DNA of 37,688 bases from the NCBI GenBank assembly GCA_905182635.1, contig CAJJCM010000045.1, forward strand, positions 1-37,688, read 5' to 3'. Shown one piece after another: positions 25,390 to 31,405 of this stretch; the first letter of the stretch is position 1, and the number at the start of each line of letters is the position of its first letter. Source of the stretch: an uncultured Candidatus Poseidoniales archaeon. Lineage in GTDB: Archaea; Thermoplasmatota; Poseidoniia; Poseidoniales; Poseidoniaceae. The notes beneath the pieces were generated by a model that saw nothing but the letters and a program-made list of their open reading frames with translations, was not told the origin of the DNA and ran no database searches. The translations under genes and the position numbers were made by a program.

Positions 25390-26001
25390 TCATTCCTCTT
25401 CCAGTGCATTGATGACTGAGAGTAACTCTTCATCGCCATCGGTGATATCTTCAATCTCATTTGAATCATTTCTGTGGTCTATATCAAGATGTGCGAAGGG
25501 ATTCACACCATTTTCCAATTGACGCAATAAGCGCCAGCGAGGTGCCCATGAAAGGTGGACATACATCGGACCTGGAAGCAATAAGAGGAGCCAGATGAAA
25601 CTTACTGGCAAAGTCAACATTTCCGTTAGAGAAATCGACAGCAAGGCAAATCCAACAAATGGCATTGGATAGAGTATGTAGCGAGGAGGGGCCACTGGAA
25701 AGCGTTTTGAAATGCTCACAATAATCAATGACATCATACCCAGCAGGAGACAAGCAACCATAATCAATGCTGAATGAAATATCCAATTGGTAAACCAACC
25801 GTTTGAGTCTTGTGCGAATCGGTAAGGGAGAAGCAAAGCAAGCGATACTAAGAGTCCGTAAAAGGCAGAAATATTCGATGGGTGTGAGAGCCAAAGTGGT
25901 AACTTTGTGAACCGACGTGAGAGTGATGTACCTAAGAGGGTTTCACGCTCGTTCGAACTGAGTACCGTAAGATACCCTTGCCATCGCGCAGAAGATTCCA
26001 C
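25390..26001 (-). CDS. Four-helix membrane protein, unknown function
   Basis: 203 residues, probably from GTG 26001, since no Met comes earlier than residue 80. Four hydrophobic helices lie at about 45-60, 72-95, 110-127 and 132-150. A cytoplasmic-looking acidic tail ends in DITDGDEELLSVINALEEE. The segment YVHLSWAPRWRLLRQLENGVNPF after the last helix is amphipathic. A TATA-like TTTACATT about 30 bases upstream would give a very short leader. No family is recognised. It follows another membrane protein gene after a 59-base gap and may share its message. Confidence 0.7.
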   Translation of the reverse strand: MESSARWQGYLTVLSSNERETLLGTSLSRRFTKLPLWLSHPSNISAFYGLLVSLALLLPYRFAQDSNGWFTNWIFHSALIMVACLLLGMMSLIIVSISKRFPVAPPRYILYPMPFVGFALLSISLTEMLTLPVSFIWLLLLLPGPMYVHLSWAPRWRLLRQLENGVNPFAHLDIDHRNDSNEIEDITDGDEELLSVINALEEE

Positions 26002-26060: not shown

Positions 26061-26705
26061 TTATTCCCTGCGGAATTTGGAAAACAAACCTTCAGGTTCA
26101 ATTTCTATCGACTCTTGTTCTTCAAGCCATGAACGTTCAAGTAAACCGGATTCAAGTTGCTCCCGCTCTCGGGCAGATTCGATTGAATCTTCAGTGCCAT
26201 TTACCGCATCACGCAAAGCGATGGCTTGATTGATAAGAATCACATAGCGTTTGAGTGCTGAATGAGTTTGAGGTAATGGACTAAAATGACCAAGGACTGC
26301 ATATGTCTCATCGTCACGGATGAGTAAGGAGCCCCCAATTAATTCATCATTGGTCAGTCGAACTCTGCCCGCCCCCACATCACCCCAAGTACCATCTGAA
26401 TATCGGACCATGACGAGTGCAGCCCCAAATTCGAGGTCACCCATGAATGGATGATTTAGATTCACTGCCAAAGGAACTCGAAGTAAAGGTGATTTGAGAT
26501 AGATGAAAAAGGTACCGAAACCACCAATGAATATGATTCCAATAGCGGCAAGAATAGTACCGCCCAAAGAGAGTTGATAAAAGAGTTTCACACTCGAAAA
26601 GAGAACATACAGAAGACCAGCAAAAAGAAGGTAATAGATGATGAGAATACCGAGAAAACGATACACGAATGGACGCGCAAGTTCCAACGAAATGAAGCGT
26701 CGCAT
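26061..26705 (-). CDS. Two-helix membrane protein with C-terminal soluble domain
   Basis: 214 residues from ATG 26705. The frame opens at 26738, but a TATA box (TTAAATAT at 26744-26737) sits there, so transcription would begin near 26715 and the later ATG fits. Two helices (about 15-37 and 44-66) are followed by a domain of beta character (GDLEFGAALVMVRYSDGTWGDVGAGRVRL) and a charged helical tail with many Glu. No known family is evident. The neighbour downstream is another membrane protein. Confidence 0.7.
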   Translation of the reverse strand: MRRFISLELARPFVYRFLGILIIYYLLFAGLLYVLFSSVKLFYQLSLGGTILAAIGIIFIGGFGTFFIYLKSPLLRVPLAVNLNHPFMGDLEFGAALVMVRYSDGTWGDVGAGRVRLTNDELIGGSLLIRDDETYAVLGHFSPLPQTHSALKRYVILINQAIALRDAVNGTEDSIESAREREQLESGLLERSWLEEQESIEIEPEGLFSKFRRE

Positions 26706-26736
26706 TTCAACCGACAATTCACCTCGCCCCTCGCCC

Positions 26737-26744
26737 ATATTTAA
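26737..26744 (-). promoter_or_regulatory. TATA box of the two-helix membrane protein gene
   Basis: TTAAATAT on the minus strand, centred about 35 bases before ATG 26705. It overlaps the upstream in-frame ATG at 26738, which argues against that ATG being the start. Confidence 0.5.
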
Positions 26745-26907: not shown

Positions 26908-28902
26908 ATGGTAGAACTACCGCAAGGAGATGTGACTGAAGTTCGCCGTGGCGGACCCGAAACTTTGCGTTTACTGTCGATCGATATGGCGCGATTAGGA
27001 ACCTCAGGCTACATCAGAATTGAACGCAGGCCAAAGGAGCAAATGCCACGAATTGGCATCGTTGCATTTCGAGAAGGTAAACCGATGCTCGCGTTGCATG
27101 AAGCAGATGCAATCACAATGTCTCTCGAAGCCTTACTGGATATTGAAAGTGATGCAGTGCTGATTGATGCTTTGCTCGCTATTCACGAACTGCCTTTACC
27201 TGACCTCAACCAAATTCTCAATCTTCACCAAGAAGCACTCTTTCAGGTCGATGAACAAACGGAACAAACGGATGAAGGACATCAATGGTGGTCAAAATCT
27301 AAATTGAGAGCGAGTACTTGGAATCGAGAAGAACGCTTACCCGTTATCGAAGTCATGGTGGAAGCACCAGAAGCAATTCGCCAACGTAGCAAAGCCCTCT
27401 TGCGACGATTTGATGGGATTGAAAAAATGTTGCGCCCCGGAGATGCTTACTTTTTCGACTCAATGAATCCAGCACCCCTGTTTGATCTTGCTGGACATTT
27501 GGCTGTTCATGGGCGCCCATTGTATGTACTTGCGAGGCATAACATTGAAGCGCTCAATGTAGAGCACAACATTCCGATTGCATCCAGCTCATGGCTGTCT
27601 CAAAATGGAGATGTGCGTTCGACTGAACCAACATTGGAAAATCTTCGCCGGAAAATTGACGCGTTTCTTTGGGAAAATCTTCGCGCAGTTGTCGTTCTTG
27701 AAGGTGTTGAATATCTCTCCAGCCTCCATGGCGATGAACGCGTCGTTGATTTCTTGCGCGATATTGTCGACGGGGTACGTCTCGAAGACCATATATTCTT
27801 GGCAACAGGTGACTTCAATGCATTTCCAATGACGACCCGTCAGCATTTATCACGCTACATGACTGACCTTGAACCGGCGGTTCTTGAGCATTGGAACCTC
27901 GAACCTGAACGTATACTCGACCACCCGCTCTGTGCGCCACCAAGTGATGAAGAAAGGCAATGGATTGAACAGCAATTACAACAGGCAATTTCGCCATCCT
28001 ATGCAGGGGACTCTCCCCCACAGTCAACCGTCTTTGGAACAATGGAGGGAGGAATTGAATCGCCTGATTCAGAAGATATACAAGCCGCAACGGAATCTCT
28101 TGACACAGTTGTTCGTGAGTGGGCTGAACCTGAAGCAAAGCCTTCTGATGCCATGACCGAACAAAGTGAAATCAATTTTGTTGAAACATTGAACCAAACT
28201 CGTCCGGTCGAAACGATACTCGAGTCGAGCGCCGTCGAAGAAAGTCAAGACTTGCGAGAAGAATTCGTACAGAAGAATGAACCAACTCAAACGAAACCAT
28301 CTGTTGAAATCGATGAATCGGTGGCTGAAGTCATTGTAAATGACATTGTTCGTATCAATCAACCACGAAAACCGCAACGGATTCGAAGGCGAAGAAAACC
28401 AACCGTTACCCGAACAACTCCTCGGAATCAACAAGGTATTCAAGCCGCAGTCGAAAATGCACAAATTGCAAAGGATTTTGTGGACATTGAAAGTTCGCAC
28501 ACAAATCCACGAAGCACATTTTCGAATTCACTTGAAGCCTACGAGAATCGCCAGAACAAAGCGGTTGAAAGTATGCGAGTGAAATCATCAGCGAAGAATG
28601 ATTCGTCGCTCTATGATGCGACACGACAACAGGTCAACAACCAAGAGTTCAACCTACCAGATACGCCTCTTCCAAAGCGGCCACTTGAATCACTAAAAGG
28701 GCGCCAACCAATCAATACACCAACTAAACTCACGCCTTTACTCGCACGACCTGGTGTGTCAAGTTCACCACAACCGAAAGAAGCGATTCGTGAATCTGCT
28801 TCTCGCCAGCAAACAGAATCACCGATTGAAATGAAACTCAGTGCTTGGGATATCGAAGACCGTGCGCGATTGAAAAAGGAATTGGAAGGTGCGAAGAAAT
28901 GA
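26908..28902 (+). CDS. DUF835-like protein with long disordered basic/acidic tail
   Basis: 664 residues from ATG 26908, with GAGGTGAGGGG just upstream. Residues about 10-115 look like a small alpha/beta module of the DUF2226/DUF4388 kind (GTSGYIRIERR, then IGIVAFREGKPMLALHEADA). Residues about 178-320 match DUF835: DAYFFDSMN, GRPLYVLARHNIEAL, SSWLSQNGDVRSTEPTLENL, AVVVLEGVEYLSSLHGDERVVDFLRDIVDGV. The last 340 residues are low-complexity, acidic up to 480, then a basic patch (PRKPQRIRRRRKPTVTR, about 486-502). DUF835 is known mainly from euryarchaea, often beside signalling domains, and its function is undescribed. Its stop overlaps the next start (ATGA), so it is coupled to the DnaA-like protein. 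Confidence 0.82.
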   Translation: MVELPQGDVTEVRRGGPETLRLLSIDMARLGTSGYIRIERRPKEQMPRIGIVAFREGKPMLALHEADAITMSLEALLDIESDAVLIDALLAIHELPLPDLNQILNLHQEALFQVDEQTEQTDEGHQWWSKSKLRASTWNREERLPVIEVMVEAPEAIRQRSKALLRRFDGIEKMLRPGDAYFFDSMNPAPLFDLAGHLAVHGRPLYVLARHNIEALNVEHNIPIASSSWLSQNGDVRSTEPTLENLRRKIDAFLWENLRAVVVLEGVEYLSSLHGDERVVDFLRDIVDGVRLEDHIFLATGDFNAFPMTTRQHLSRYMTDLEPAVLEHWNLEPERILDHPLCAPPSDEERQWIEQQLQQAISPSYAGDSPPQSTVFGTMEGGIESPDSEDIQAATESLDTVVREWAEPEAKPSDAMTEQSEINFVETLNQTRPVETILESSAVEESQDLREEFVQKNEPTQTKPSVEIDESVAEVIVNDIVRINQPRKPQRIRRRRKPTVTRTTPRNQQGIQAAVENAQIAKDFVDIESSHTNPRSTFSNSLEAYENRQNKAVESMRVKSSAKNDSSLYDATRQQVNNQEFNLPDTPLPKRPLESLKGRQPINTPTKLTPLLARPGVSSSPQPKEAIRESASRQQTESPIEMKLSAWDIEDRARLKKELEGAKK

Positions 28903-30941
28903 GCGACCGCCGAGATAATTTAGCTCTTGCATTGGAGTTGGCAAAACAACATCTCAACAAATCCGGAACTGGAATTGACCGAATCAGAATTCCAACAAAT
29001 AAGGATTCGCAATCCTCTCAATCGAAAATGAATCGACTGCTTGGAAAACAAAACGTTCAGGATCAGCGACAAGGAACGCTTCTACAGAGAACAGGTATTG
29101 TCGAGCGACCGACATTTGATGTAGTCGCAGATAAGGTATTGGGGAAAGAAAGCAAACGTAGAAGACCCTCTCTCGACCTTAAATCAAATGGTGACTCATT
29201 AGCAGATATTGCTGCACGCCGCATACGCTCTTTACGGCAACGAACCTATGAGGAAATTGAACAACATACGGGCGGTTCCGAAGAAACAGAAGACGGTTAT
29301 GTCGGAATGGAGGAAGATGGTCGTCCTGTGTGGGAGCGGATTCTCGATGAACAACGAGGTCGTGTGACTCTGGCCTTACCGCCGGATTTGGCACCTGTTG
29401 ATTCCGATTCACCCTTTCACCATGATGTGACTGTCCCTACAGAGGGGGCATGGCCTCAACGTTTGCGCCCTGAGAGTCGCATGAGTTTCAAACAATGGTT
29501 CACCACCAACGAAAATTATCGCGCCACGCAGGCAGCGGAAGCCATTGTCGATTCCCCAGGAGGGTCACTGAATCCACTGATTTTTATCGGACCTACCGAA
29601 ACTGGCCGCTCACATCTCCTTCATGCGACTGCACAAGCTGTTCTTCGCCGCCAAGAAGGGAATGTATATCTCCTCTCTGCTGCAGATCTATCTGGCCTTC
29701 AGCATTTACCTAAAGGCTGGCAAGATAGTCTTGTAAATGCTCGATTGCTTGCCATTGATGACCTTCATGAATGTGCCAGGAACCCTGAACTGGCGCATGA
29801 ACTCGGAACAATGCTTGATTATGCGCTCAATATGGGTGTCCATATCCTCCTCTCTTCGAATTCTGAACCCGAAGATTGGCCAACATCGCGTTTATGGGAA
29901 TTAACTCGCAATGCTGCTTCGGTTCACCTCGGCGCTCCTAAACCCGCCAGCATGGTACTGTATGCTCGGAGTTTGGCTCAAAAGAAGGGATTCATAATGA
30001 ATGACGGTCAACTCGCCAGTATGGTTTTACAAGACATAATTGGCTGGCGTGCAACCAAAGCAAACTTCGATTTGGTCGCTCTCGCCCTCCAATCCGGTCG
30101 AGATATTCTCGATGGCGATGATGTAACTGCACTGCTTTCAAACCAAATGGAAGAGGGAACTGAAGCGGTGCCGATTGAACGCGAAAACGTCGAAGATATT
30201 GCAACTCGATTAGTCGCTTCTGCCGTCGATACCATCTACAGCGACACGGTTCATGGTGGTATTGAGCTGTATTCGGAACTCCCTGAAATAGGAGTCGATA
30301 CGTATAACCCTCCTGAAATCGATACACAAGCGTTGGCACAAGAAGCAGATGCCCGTCATGCTGCTTATCTCAAAGTAGCACTCGAAGACACTGCACCTTC
30401 TGCATCTTCGGTTCTCGCGTTGCATGAGCGAGAGGAGCACCTCATCACACGTAAAGGACACATCGAGGAGCGTGATTATGGGCGTGCTGCTGACTTACTT
30501 ACCGAGTTGGATGAAGCGTTTGATACACAAATAAATACTTTTGAAAGCGATTTCCGCCAAAGTTCTGTGCAACTTGCCCACATTGAAGCAAAGCTAGTGG
30601 ATCTGTCGAAACGAACCTCCGAAGCATCGATGGATGAATTGATTTCGATTACTGATGAATTGAGGGCAATGGAAGGAAATCTCATTGAATTGGATCCTGA
30701 ACGAGACCCCTGGCCCGATATGGAAACGGATGACGCCCCAAAGAAGAGACGCAAAGTCGGCCGGCGAAAACCAACTTCAACAGAGCAATCTTTGAAGAGC
30801 CATGAGCGTGAAGATGAAGGGGATATTGATGTACGAAAGAACAGGGCGTCGGACTTACTTGATGATGAAGAAGTGACTCGGATAATTCGACTCGACCGAA
30901 TCCATTCAGTCCATAGACTCGTCCCAGGTGAAGAAGTATGA
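28899..30941 (+). CDS. DnaA-like AAA+ ATPase with coiled-coil tail
   Basis: 680 residues from ATG 28899; the frame is open upstream but the ATGA overlap marks the start. Residues 1-190 are charged and probably disordered. Residues 196-415 resemble DnaA domain III: SFKQWFTTNENYRATQAAEA, then NPLIFIGPTETGRSHLLHAT (Walker A 231-238, with Arg237 where Lys is expected), LLAIDDLHE (Walker B 283-288, Asp-Asp as in DnaA), ILLSSNSEPEDWP (sensor 1), and a lid with WRATKANFDLVALALQSGRD. No DnaA-box-binding domain IV is present. Instead residues about 505-600 form a coiled coil, followed by a basic patch (PKKRRKVGRRK, 614-624) and an acidic end. Archaea normally use Orc1/Cdc6, so the role is unknown; with the Lys lost, ATP hydrolysis is doubtful. 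Confidence 0.8.
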   Translation: MSDRRDNLALALELAKQHLNKSGTGIDRIRIPTNKDSQSSQSKMNRLLGKQNVQDQRQGTLLQRTGIVERPTFDVVADKVLGKESKRRRPSLDLKSNGDSLADIAARRIRSLRQRTYEEIEQHTGGSEETEDGYVGMEEDGRPVWERILDEQRGRVTLALPPDLAPVDSDSPFHHDVTVPTEGAWPQRLRPESRMSFKQWFTTNENYRATQAAEAIVDSPGGSLNPLIFIGPTETGRSHLLHATAQAVLRRQEGNVYLLSAADLSGLQHLPKGWQDSLVNARLLAIDDLHECARNPELAHELGTMLDYALNMGVHILLSSNSEPEDWPTSRLWELTRNAASVHLGAPKPASMVLYARSLAQKKGFIMNDGQLASMVLQDIIGWRATKANFDLVALALQSGRDILDGDDVTALLSNQMEEGTEAVPIERENVEDIATRLVASAVDTIYSDTVHGGIELYSELPEIGVDTYNPPEIDTQALAQEADARHAAYLKVALEDTAPSASSVLALHEREEHLITRKGHIEERDYGRAADLLTELDEAFDTQINTFESDFRQSSVQLAHIEAKLVDLSKRTSEASMDELISITDELRAMEGNLIELDPERDPWPDMETDDAPKKRRKVGRRKPTSTEQSLKSHEREDEGDIDVRKNRASDLLDDEEVTRIIRLDRIHSVHRLVPGEEV

Positions 30942-31405
30942 GAGCGCCATGGTGGATGAAAGGCGTTGCCTTTTCATGCCAAGCAAGTTGCGGTAAGTGC
31001 TGCGATGAACCCGGTGGTATTGTCTATCTCTCAGTAACTGATGCTGAACGAATATCTTCGGCAAATGAAATGGAGGTCGAGGACTGGCTTGAACGTGATT
31101 GTCGGCAAACGCTCGATGGGCGTTATGTGTTGAAAAGCCGGCCTGAAGATGGAGTCTGTATTAATTTGGATGAAAACAAACAATGCATGATTTACGAAGT
31201 TCGCCCACAGCAATGTGCTGCATTCCCATGGTGGGGTGAGAACTTAGCCACCGACCGAGCCTGGAAGAAAGTGAAAGATGCATGCCCTGGGCTTACTGCA
31301 GATGATGCAATTCTTATCGATGGTGAAACGGTCCGAATCCATATTTTCGCTGACAGAGAATCTACCAAGGGATTTCGTTCGTGGCCACCACATAGTAAAA
31401 GATAG
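30938..31405 (+). CDS. YkgJ-type Cys-cluster (zinc- or iron-chelating) protein
   Basis: 155 residues from ATG 30938, overlapping the DnaA-like gene by four bases. Cys pattern: FSCQASCGKCCDEPGG near residue 14, then GVCINLDENKQCMIYEVRPQQCAAFPWW near 75-100. This is the layout of the YkgJ/DUF-type family, which has a Cys-rich metal site of unknown use. A further Cys lies in DACPG. The protein is soluble. Third and last gene of the trio, and the TATA box and start of citrate synthase come after it. Confidence 0.85.
   Translation: MRAPWWMKGVAFSCQASCGKCCDEPGGIVYLSVTDAERISSANEMEVEDWLERDCRQTLDGRYVLKSRPEDGVCINLDENKQCMIYEVRPQQCAAFPWWGENLATDRAWKKVKDACPGLTADDAILIDGETVRIHIFADRESTKGFRSWPPHSKR

Follow-up and report, generated by a model that had tools for sequence, protein, structure and literature searches.

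The stretch of DNA described here, hereafter the window, comprises 37,688 nucleotides (positions 1–37,688 of the forward strand of contig CAJJCM010000045.1, assembly GCA_905182635.1) from an uncultured Candidatus Poseidoniales archaeon (Marine Group II). Within it lies a gene for an AAA+ protein that resembles DnaA, and directly upstream of this gene is another, for a protein with a DUF835 domain, whose stop codon overlaps the AAA+ start by 4 bases (Table 1). DnaA-type motors are textbook parts of bacterial replication. An earlier reading of the AAA+ gene from the sequence alone (the original prediction) recognized the DnaA-type domain but missed this context, both the adjoining DUF835 gene and the fused versions of the two that occur in other Thermoplasmatota; it is the pair, in place of an orphan, that becomes the object to test. 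We place the start of the AAA+ gene at the ATG at 28899, since homologues start at the equivalent ATG; a TTG at 28845 merely extends the open frame and is not the start.

Table 1. Features of the DnaA-like/DUF835 gene pair and of the gene that follows it (positions in the window)
Feature	Positions	Strand	Evidence
Partner gene, 664 aa: N-domain, DUF835 (inactive KaiC-like), long low-confidence tail	26908..28902	+	Open reading frame, Pfam, model
Partner N-domain, residues 3–94, homologous to fusion N-domain	26914..27189	+	hhalign 98.1%, E 1.3e-13
Partner DUF835, residues 174–322	27427..27873	+	PF05763 E 4.4e-10; E 2.3e-17 to fusion C-terminus
Partner basic stretch RKPQRIRRRRKP	28366..28401	+	Sequence; comparable stretch in 71/76 partner sequences
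DnaA-like AAA+ protein, 680 aa	28899..30941	+	Open reading frame, Pfam/NCBIfam profiles, homologue alignment, predicted model
N-terminal region, residues 1–153, low-confidence structure, conserved short motifs	28899..29357	+	Alignment and model
DnaA/Hda-type AAA+ core and lid, residues 190–415	29466..30143	+	Profiles, alignment, model, fold match
Walker A GPTETGRS, residues 231–238; Arg237 codon CGC at 29607–29609	29589..29612	+	Alignment
Walker B Asp287-Asp288	29757..29762	+	Alignment
Leu335, column of the E. coli DnaA arginine finger	29901..29903	+	50-domain alignment
Arg384, sensor II equivalent	30048..30050	+	50-domain alignment
Long helices/coiled coil, residues 524–598	30468..30692	+	Predicted model
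Basic stretch KKRRKVGRRKPT, residues 615–626	30741..30776	+	Sequence
CxxCxxCC (YkgJ-like) protein, overlapping AAA+ stop	30938..31405	+	Pfam; 74/80 loci

The AAA+ protein matches the Pfam family Bac_DnaA (PF00308) over residues 194–326 with an E value of 9.7e-11 and 42.6 bits (cut-off 23). Among NCBIfam profiles, DnaA (TIGR00362; E 7.4e-13, 48.4 bits) and Hda (TIGR03420; E 1.1e-12, 48.0 bits) match residues 189–330 best and nearly equally, both far under their equivalog cut-offs of 343.9 and 194.8 bits, respectively. The DnaC/IstB-type ATPases are related AAA+ proteins, but they match more weakly (PRK06835, E 2.8e-6; IstB, E 0.0004; DnaC, E 0.057; IstB in Pfam, E 0.083, weaker than Bac_DnaA). 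Orc1/Cdc6 is not among the NCBIfam families reported at E ≤ 0.1, and neither domain I of DnaA nor its DNA-box domain IV (PF08299) is among the four Pfam families reported at E ≤ 1. An AlphaFold2 model built from 55 aligned sequences has a whole-chain mean predicted local distance difference test score (pLDDT) of 68.6 and a predicted template modelling score (pTM) of 0.40; the AAA+ core, at residues ~190–410, is confident, with 10-residue pLDDT means of 81–92. In a Foldseek search of the PDB the best match is domain III of B. subtilis DnaA (8bv3_A, E 1.1e-13, template modelling (TM) score by target 0.80), other DnaA chains and Hda chains rank next, and the general AAA+ proteins RuvB and spastin rank lower. 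The profile and structure comparisons proposed with the original prediction thus bear out its identification of a DnaA-type AAA+ domain in an archaeon, and its statement that the DNA-box domain is missing.

That prediction also described a disordered N-terminus and, toward the C-terminus, a coiled coil with a basic patch. The N-terminal region is indeed poorly ordered in the model, but it is not featureless, as R70, P71, R108, P143, W145 and R153 are invariant across the 55 aligned sequences. The C-terminal description holds as well: the model places long helices at residues 524–575 and 578–598, the basic stretch KKRRKVGRRKPT lies beyond them, and a stretch like it is found beyond residue 560 in 40 of 77 AAA+ sequences.

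The replacement of the Walker A Lys by Arg at residue 237, which had been read as a sign of binding without normal hydrolysis, is confirmed in the alignment. A search returned 134 relatives, of which the best 80 were aligned with the window protein and three sequences from one of the two Poseidoniales families considered below (f2), giving 84 rows. Site 237 holds R in 41 of these, K in 36, C in 2, G in 2, I in 2 and T in 1. The Arg is therefore a lineage trait, and the notion of a single mutation private to this copy was rejected. At the same time, the Lys-to-Arg change is not the key feature by itself, since Lys is also common and in other lineages the residue is Cys, Gly, Ile or Thr. On a quick tree from which the Walker A columns were excluded, parsimony requires Lys and non-Lys to interchange at least 3 times, with at least 8 letter changes. 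The window protein may bind nucleotide without hydrolysing it.

An alignment of 50 AAA+ domains, some of them near-copies, comprises 11 bacterial DnaA, 9 DnaA–DUF835 fusions, 9 other DnaA-like proteins of Thermoplasmatota and 21 Poseidoniales proteins. Giving the groups in that order, the Walker A Lys is present in 11/11, 9/9, 9/9 and 8/21 rows, Arg occupies the arginine finger column in 11/11, 6/9, 9/9 and 0/21, and Asp occupies the sensor I Asp column in 11/11, 6/9, 9/9 and 1/21. The finger corresponds to R285 in E. coli DnaA. The initiator-specific insert is 27 residues long in the bacterial proteins (11/11), 26–27 in 8 of the 9 fusions and 14 in one, 27–28 in the other Thermoplasmatota (9/9), and 19–21 in Poseidoniales (21/21). 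The sensor II Arg is retained in 18 of the 21 Poseidoniales rows, the window protein included, and Walker B D287-D288 is invariant in the 55 aligned Poseidoniaceae sequences; in one f2 sequence outside that set (L027), Glu replaces the first Walker B Asp. On these counts, erosion is greatest in Poseidoniales, Lys-keeping members included, and the lost arginine finger and shortened insert are more telling than the Lys-to-Arg change.

The partner protein has a DUF835 domain. In archaeal two-component proteins this domain is described as an inactive KaiC to which REC and PAS domains are attached (PMC5847659). The partner resembles those proteins in its DUF835 domain and in the fold matches of its model, which include Rad51, FlaH and KaiC and also ClpX chains (E about 1e-4; TM by target at most 0.51 among the 50 matches listed). 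Unlike those proteins, it has no REC or PAS domain reported by Pfam, and it carries its DUF835 together with an N-domain and is encoded beside a DnaA-like AAA+ protein. Searched by itself, the N-domain scores above cut-off for no Pfam family. The pairing is regular: the partner gene lies upstream of the AAA+ gene in 75 of the best 80 loci, and in the remaining five (L073, L090, L102, L108, L110) the AAA+ match begins at most 460 bases from a contig end.

Relatives outside Poseidoniales carry the same modules in one chain. Pfam finds PF00308 in all nine strong DnaA-like proteins from other Thermoplasmatota, and DUF835 also in six of them (L036, L039, L040, L041, L045, L047). In profile comparisons, whose E values each represent a single comparison, the Poseidoniales AAA+ family matches the middle of these fusions at E 5.6e-24, and the partner matches them both in DUF835 (E 2.3e-17) and in the N-domain (E 1.3e-13), which is present in 8 of the 9 fusion rows (not in L047). 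Of 20 shuffled-column controls for the N-domain, 19 gave a score, and these reached at most 2.9% probability. The N-domain of one fusion (L041) resembles DUF2226, just below cut-off (20.6 versus 22 bits). The N-domain, the DnaA AAA+ domain and DUF835 are thus all homologous to modules of the fusions, but in the window they are spread over two adjacent genes, and the AAA+ site is degraded. We know of no name for the DnaA–DUF835 proteins. In a tree of the AAA+ domains the 21 Poseidoniales rows group with 7 of the 9 fusion rows with support of 95/87. The free tree does not unite archaeal DnaA-like domains against bacterial DnaA (11 bacterial rows), and a tree constrained to do so is not rejected by the approximately unbiased (AU) test (p-AU 0.278).

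The two genes also occur together across the order. Profiles for both proteins were searched in 155 genomes, 86 from family f1 and 69 from family f2. In f1 the AAA+ protein is found in 85/86 genomes and a partner-profile match in 84/86; some of these partner matches are partial or represent only a shorter DUF835 paralogue (G290), and four cross one TGA. One f1 genome has a partial partner match without the AAA+ protein (G146), and two have the AAA+ protein without a partner match (G304, G335). In f2 both proteins fall in the same 12 of 69 genomes (G027, G031, G032, G198, G215, G260, G261, G263, G265, G267, G301, G309), the AAA+ match in G301 being a fragment at a contig end (E 3.2e-8). The module can therefore be dispensed with, and it is kept or lost as a unit. 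The f2 genomes with the pair measure 1.6–2.1 Mb, and the listed f2 genomes without it 1.1–1.7 Mb. Three further f2 matches were set aside: two AAA+ matches (G277, G313) were assigned to bacterial dnaA on the frame itself, and for G277 on its neighbours as well, and one partner match (G039) is the shorter DUF835 paralogue. By eye, the G277 gene (L200:3093-4466) stands beside dnaN-, recF- and gyrB-like frames, as on contaminant contigs; the G313 gene lies at L201:8017-9453. The shorter DUF835 protein is widespread in the order (for example L202:8304-9365, minus strand) and, by eye, has a helical segment like that of the fused DnaA–DUF835 proteins.

The phylum-wide searches speak against a role in initiating replication. 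PF08299 exceeds its cut-off in 0 of 243 Thermoplasmatota genomes, with one sub-threshold match (G234); in a control search it was positive in 10 of 14 named genomes, all bacteria. PF00308 is found in 89 of the 243 genomes at E ≤ 0.001, over cut-off in 77, many of the weaker matches covering only part of the profile, and 19 of the 243, outside Poseidoniales, have matches above 79 bits. By itself PF00308 is not specific, since its control search was positive in 13 of the 14 genomes, three archaea among them. Orc1/Cdc6 (TIGR02928), in turn, is found in 40 of 40 genomes searched, over cut-off in 39, and the source genome has its own separate copy (G000:C68). This distribution favors a scaffold or regulator over an initiator, so these two parts of the earlier functional suggestion stand, and the third, a loader, has no support of its own. 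We also rejected an essential role in replication, given that the pair is missing from 57 of the 69 f2 genomes and Orc1/Cdc6 is found throughout the 40, 16 of them f2.

Set against known systems, the window protein shares with domain III of bacterial DnaA its fold, motif order and lid, a conserved NPL ahead of Walker A, the Walker B DD and the sensor II Arg. It departs from DnaA in the undetected domains I and IV, the Leu in the arginine finger column, the Walker A Arg, the short insert, the added coiled coil and conserved N-terminal motifs, and the presence of an Orc1/Cdc6 gene in the same genome. With Hda it shares an AAA+ domain without domain IV and a similar profile score and fold, but it falls far short of the Hda cut-off, has large extra regions, and belongs to a phylum in which no DnaA with domain IV was found over cut-off for it to inactivate. 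DnaA-like AAA+ ATPases (arCOG07960) have also been described from archaeal viruses and mobile elements (PMC4158269); these are likewise archaeal and called DnaA-like, but virus-associated, a likeness drawn from their description only. A viral origin was considered and dropped, as a viral contig scan gave 59 pattern matches, none of them related to the window family. Literature searches, which left most subscription papers outside their reach, returned nothing linking DUF835 with DnaA, Poseidoniales with DnaA, or 'DnaA domain' with Thermoplasmata.

Taken together, these observations suggest that the AAA+ protein, rather than initiating replication, has probably been repurposed as a scaffold or regulator. 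More specifically, we think it fairly likely that it serves a DnaA-like/DUF835 module as its scaffold or nucleotide-sensing subunit. The two-gene module of Poseidoniales would descend from a Thermoplasmatota protein that combined the N-domain, a DnaA domain-III-type AAA+ domain and DUF835; the AAA+ part, once within one polypeptide, would now have its own gene, with both ends (N-domain and DUF835) kept by the neighbouring gene. A passage from fusion to split genes is the simplest account, and it leans on moderate tree support. Along this path the AAA+ subunit would have shed the initiator parts, namely the DNA-box domain, the full insert and the arginine finger, and in the window lineage the Walker A Lys as well. 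We infer that the remaining core, with Walker B and sensor II mostly kept, assembles physically with the DUF835 partner and no longer hydrolyzes nucleotide in the window lineage, while the coiled coil, the conserved N-terminal motifs and the basic tail of the partner may tether further proteins or nucleic acid.

Several observations weigh against this explanation. With Lys in 36 of the 84 sequences and a Lys clade in the tree, some family members may still bind and hydrolyze nucleotide; that clade, of 13 rows, is placed among Arg lineages in the quick tree, so that Lys was either regained once or lost several times. The invariant Walker B fits retained Mg-nucleotide binding, and on the partner side 3 of 76 sequences show a simple P-loop pattern. 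Two fusion rows (L039, L040) are placed elsewhere in the AAA+ tree, whose support for placing the Poseidoniales family among the fusions is moderate, with long branches flagged, and which was built without Hda and DnaC, Hda being compared by profile and fold only. Finally, a distance correlation (mirror-tree) over the 58 rows with all five genes gave partial r values of 0.635 for partner/AAA+, 0.641 for YkgJ/Kbl and 0.526 for AAA+/citrate synthase. Because a neighbour pair not suspected of contact scores equally high, the correlation is non-specific for interaction.

The alternative that survives best, though we consider it unlikely, is a chromosome-associated switch, in which the AAA+ protein binds nucleotide without hydrolysis and, with its DUF835 partner, coats or marks DNA, as the motif-keeping fusions might. 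The Walker A Lys, arginine finger and sensor II are all kept in 6 of the 9 fusions and in 9 of 9 other Thermoplasmatota proteins, Walker B is unchanging in the Poseidoniaceae set, and most partners carry a basic stretch. The genes around the fusions point in the same direction: L183, L184 and L187 hold gyrase genes (checked by Pfam in L183 and L187, by eye in L184), L184 also has an endonuclease IV-like gene and an OGG gene, L185 and L186 have Rad51-family genes resembling RadB, and L188 has SepF. These neighbours hint at chromosome biology, but as conserved blocks of related genomes they are not independent evidence. In Poseidoniales, however, the neighbours of the pair are Kbl, YkgJ and citrate synthase, the insert is shortened in all 21 rows, no known DNA-binding domain scores above the Pfam cut-off in either window protein, and both are strongly negative in net charge (−38 and −31).

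We regard as improbable a helicase loader or initiation regulator that would act on Orc1/Cdc6 or the replicative MCM in the manner of DnaC or Hda. In its favour are the near-equality of the Hda and DnaA profiles, the Hda structures among the best folds and the shortened insert, a trait that Hda shares with the Poseidoniales AAA+ proteins. Against it, the pair is absent from most f2 genomes while Orc1/Cdc6 is present in all 16 tested, the arginine finger is lacking in 21 of 21 rows, and no replication gene adjoins the pair in the Poseidoniales regions read. A part in signalling or motility, as an archaellum or chemosensory output, has a smaller chance still. Apart from the two-component setting described for DUF835 (PMC5847659), it draws on co-occurrence over the 155 genomes, with archaellin in 82 of the 86 genomes of f1, the family that nearly always has the pair. 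Within f2 this association is not supported: archaellin is present in just 7 of the 12 pair genomes and in 15 genomes without the pair, which argues against a specific archaellum link, and no signalling gene is recognized beside the pair in the window. The idea of a chance mutation or an assembly error confined to a single genome, conceivable in an assembly that is 66.5% complete, is effectively refuted by the Arg-bearing homologues from separate assemblies and by the lack of an internal stop in all 28 matches examined.

The scaffold or nucleotide-sensing reading extends to a broader proposal, which we advance tentatively. Several families of this archaeal phylum may have built regulators from a DnaA motor without its DNA-reading domain and an inactive KaiC; in Poseidoniales these would have become two genes and lost catalysis (with Arg, Cys, Gly, Ile or Thr in place of the Lys, and the arginine finger gone), leaving a pseudo-ATPase scaffold comparable to pseudokinases. 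DnaA-type motors do occur in several families of the phylum, with the DNA-box domain not detected over cut-off and in part joined to an inactive KaiC. The resulting natural series, from working motor to presumed scaffold, makes it testable which parts of the initiator fold serve assembly and which catalysis. Among the planktonic archaea of surface waters, Marine Group II is ranked first in abundance by one report (PMC6461757).

The surroundings of the pair are largely constant. Citrate synthase is found in 73 of the 80 loci and the YkgJ-like gene in 74 (L131 and L134 have citrate synthase without a YkgJ-like match), and in the four f2 regions read (L196–L199) the DUF835, AAA+, YkgJ-like and citrate synthase genes are again neighbours, in varying orientation. 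The C-terminal GEEE of the AAA+ family (GEEV in the window, 30927–30941) is near-invariant and overlaps the region in which the following gene starts; its conservation may therefore reflect a ribosome-binding site and not protein function. Two apparent membrane proteins in the window (26061–26738 and 25390–26001, both minus strand) have no Pfam matches over cut-off; by eye, similar-looking frames occupy the corresponding place in the f2 regions read, with Kbl on one side and the DUF835 gene on the other. The Poseidoniaceae gene block is also present in metagenome-assembled genomes labelled Phycisphaerae and Rhodobiaceae (L120, L130), and these bins therefore probably hold misassigned archaeal contigs.

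Among the other loci, L187:3836-6325 (minus strand) is an archaeal gyrB that carries an intein splicing domain. In L029 and L030 a DnaA-type AAA+ domain follows a long helical-repeat array (by eye) and precedes zinc ribbons (Pfam in L030), a very different architecture for a DnaA domain. In L032 the DnaA-type AAA+ domain is C-terminal on an apparent membrane protein with an extracellular fibronectin-like part (by eye), and the gene adjoins one for a KaiC-family ATPase.

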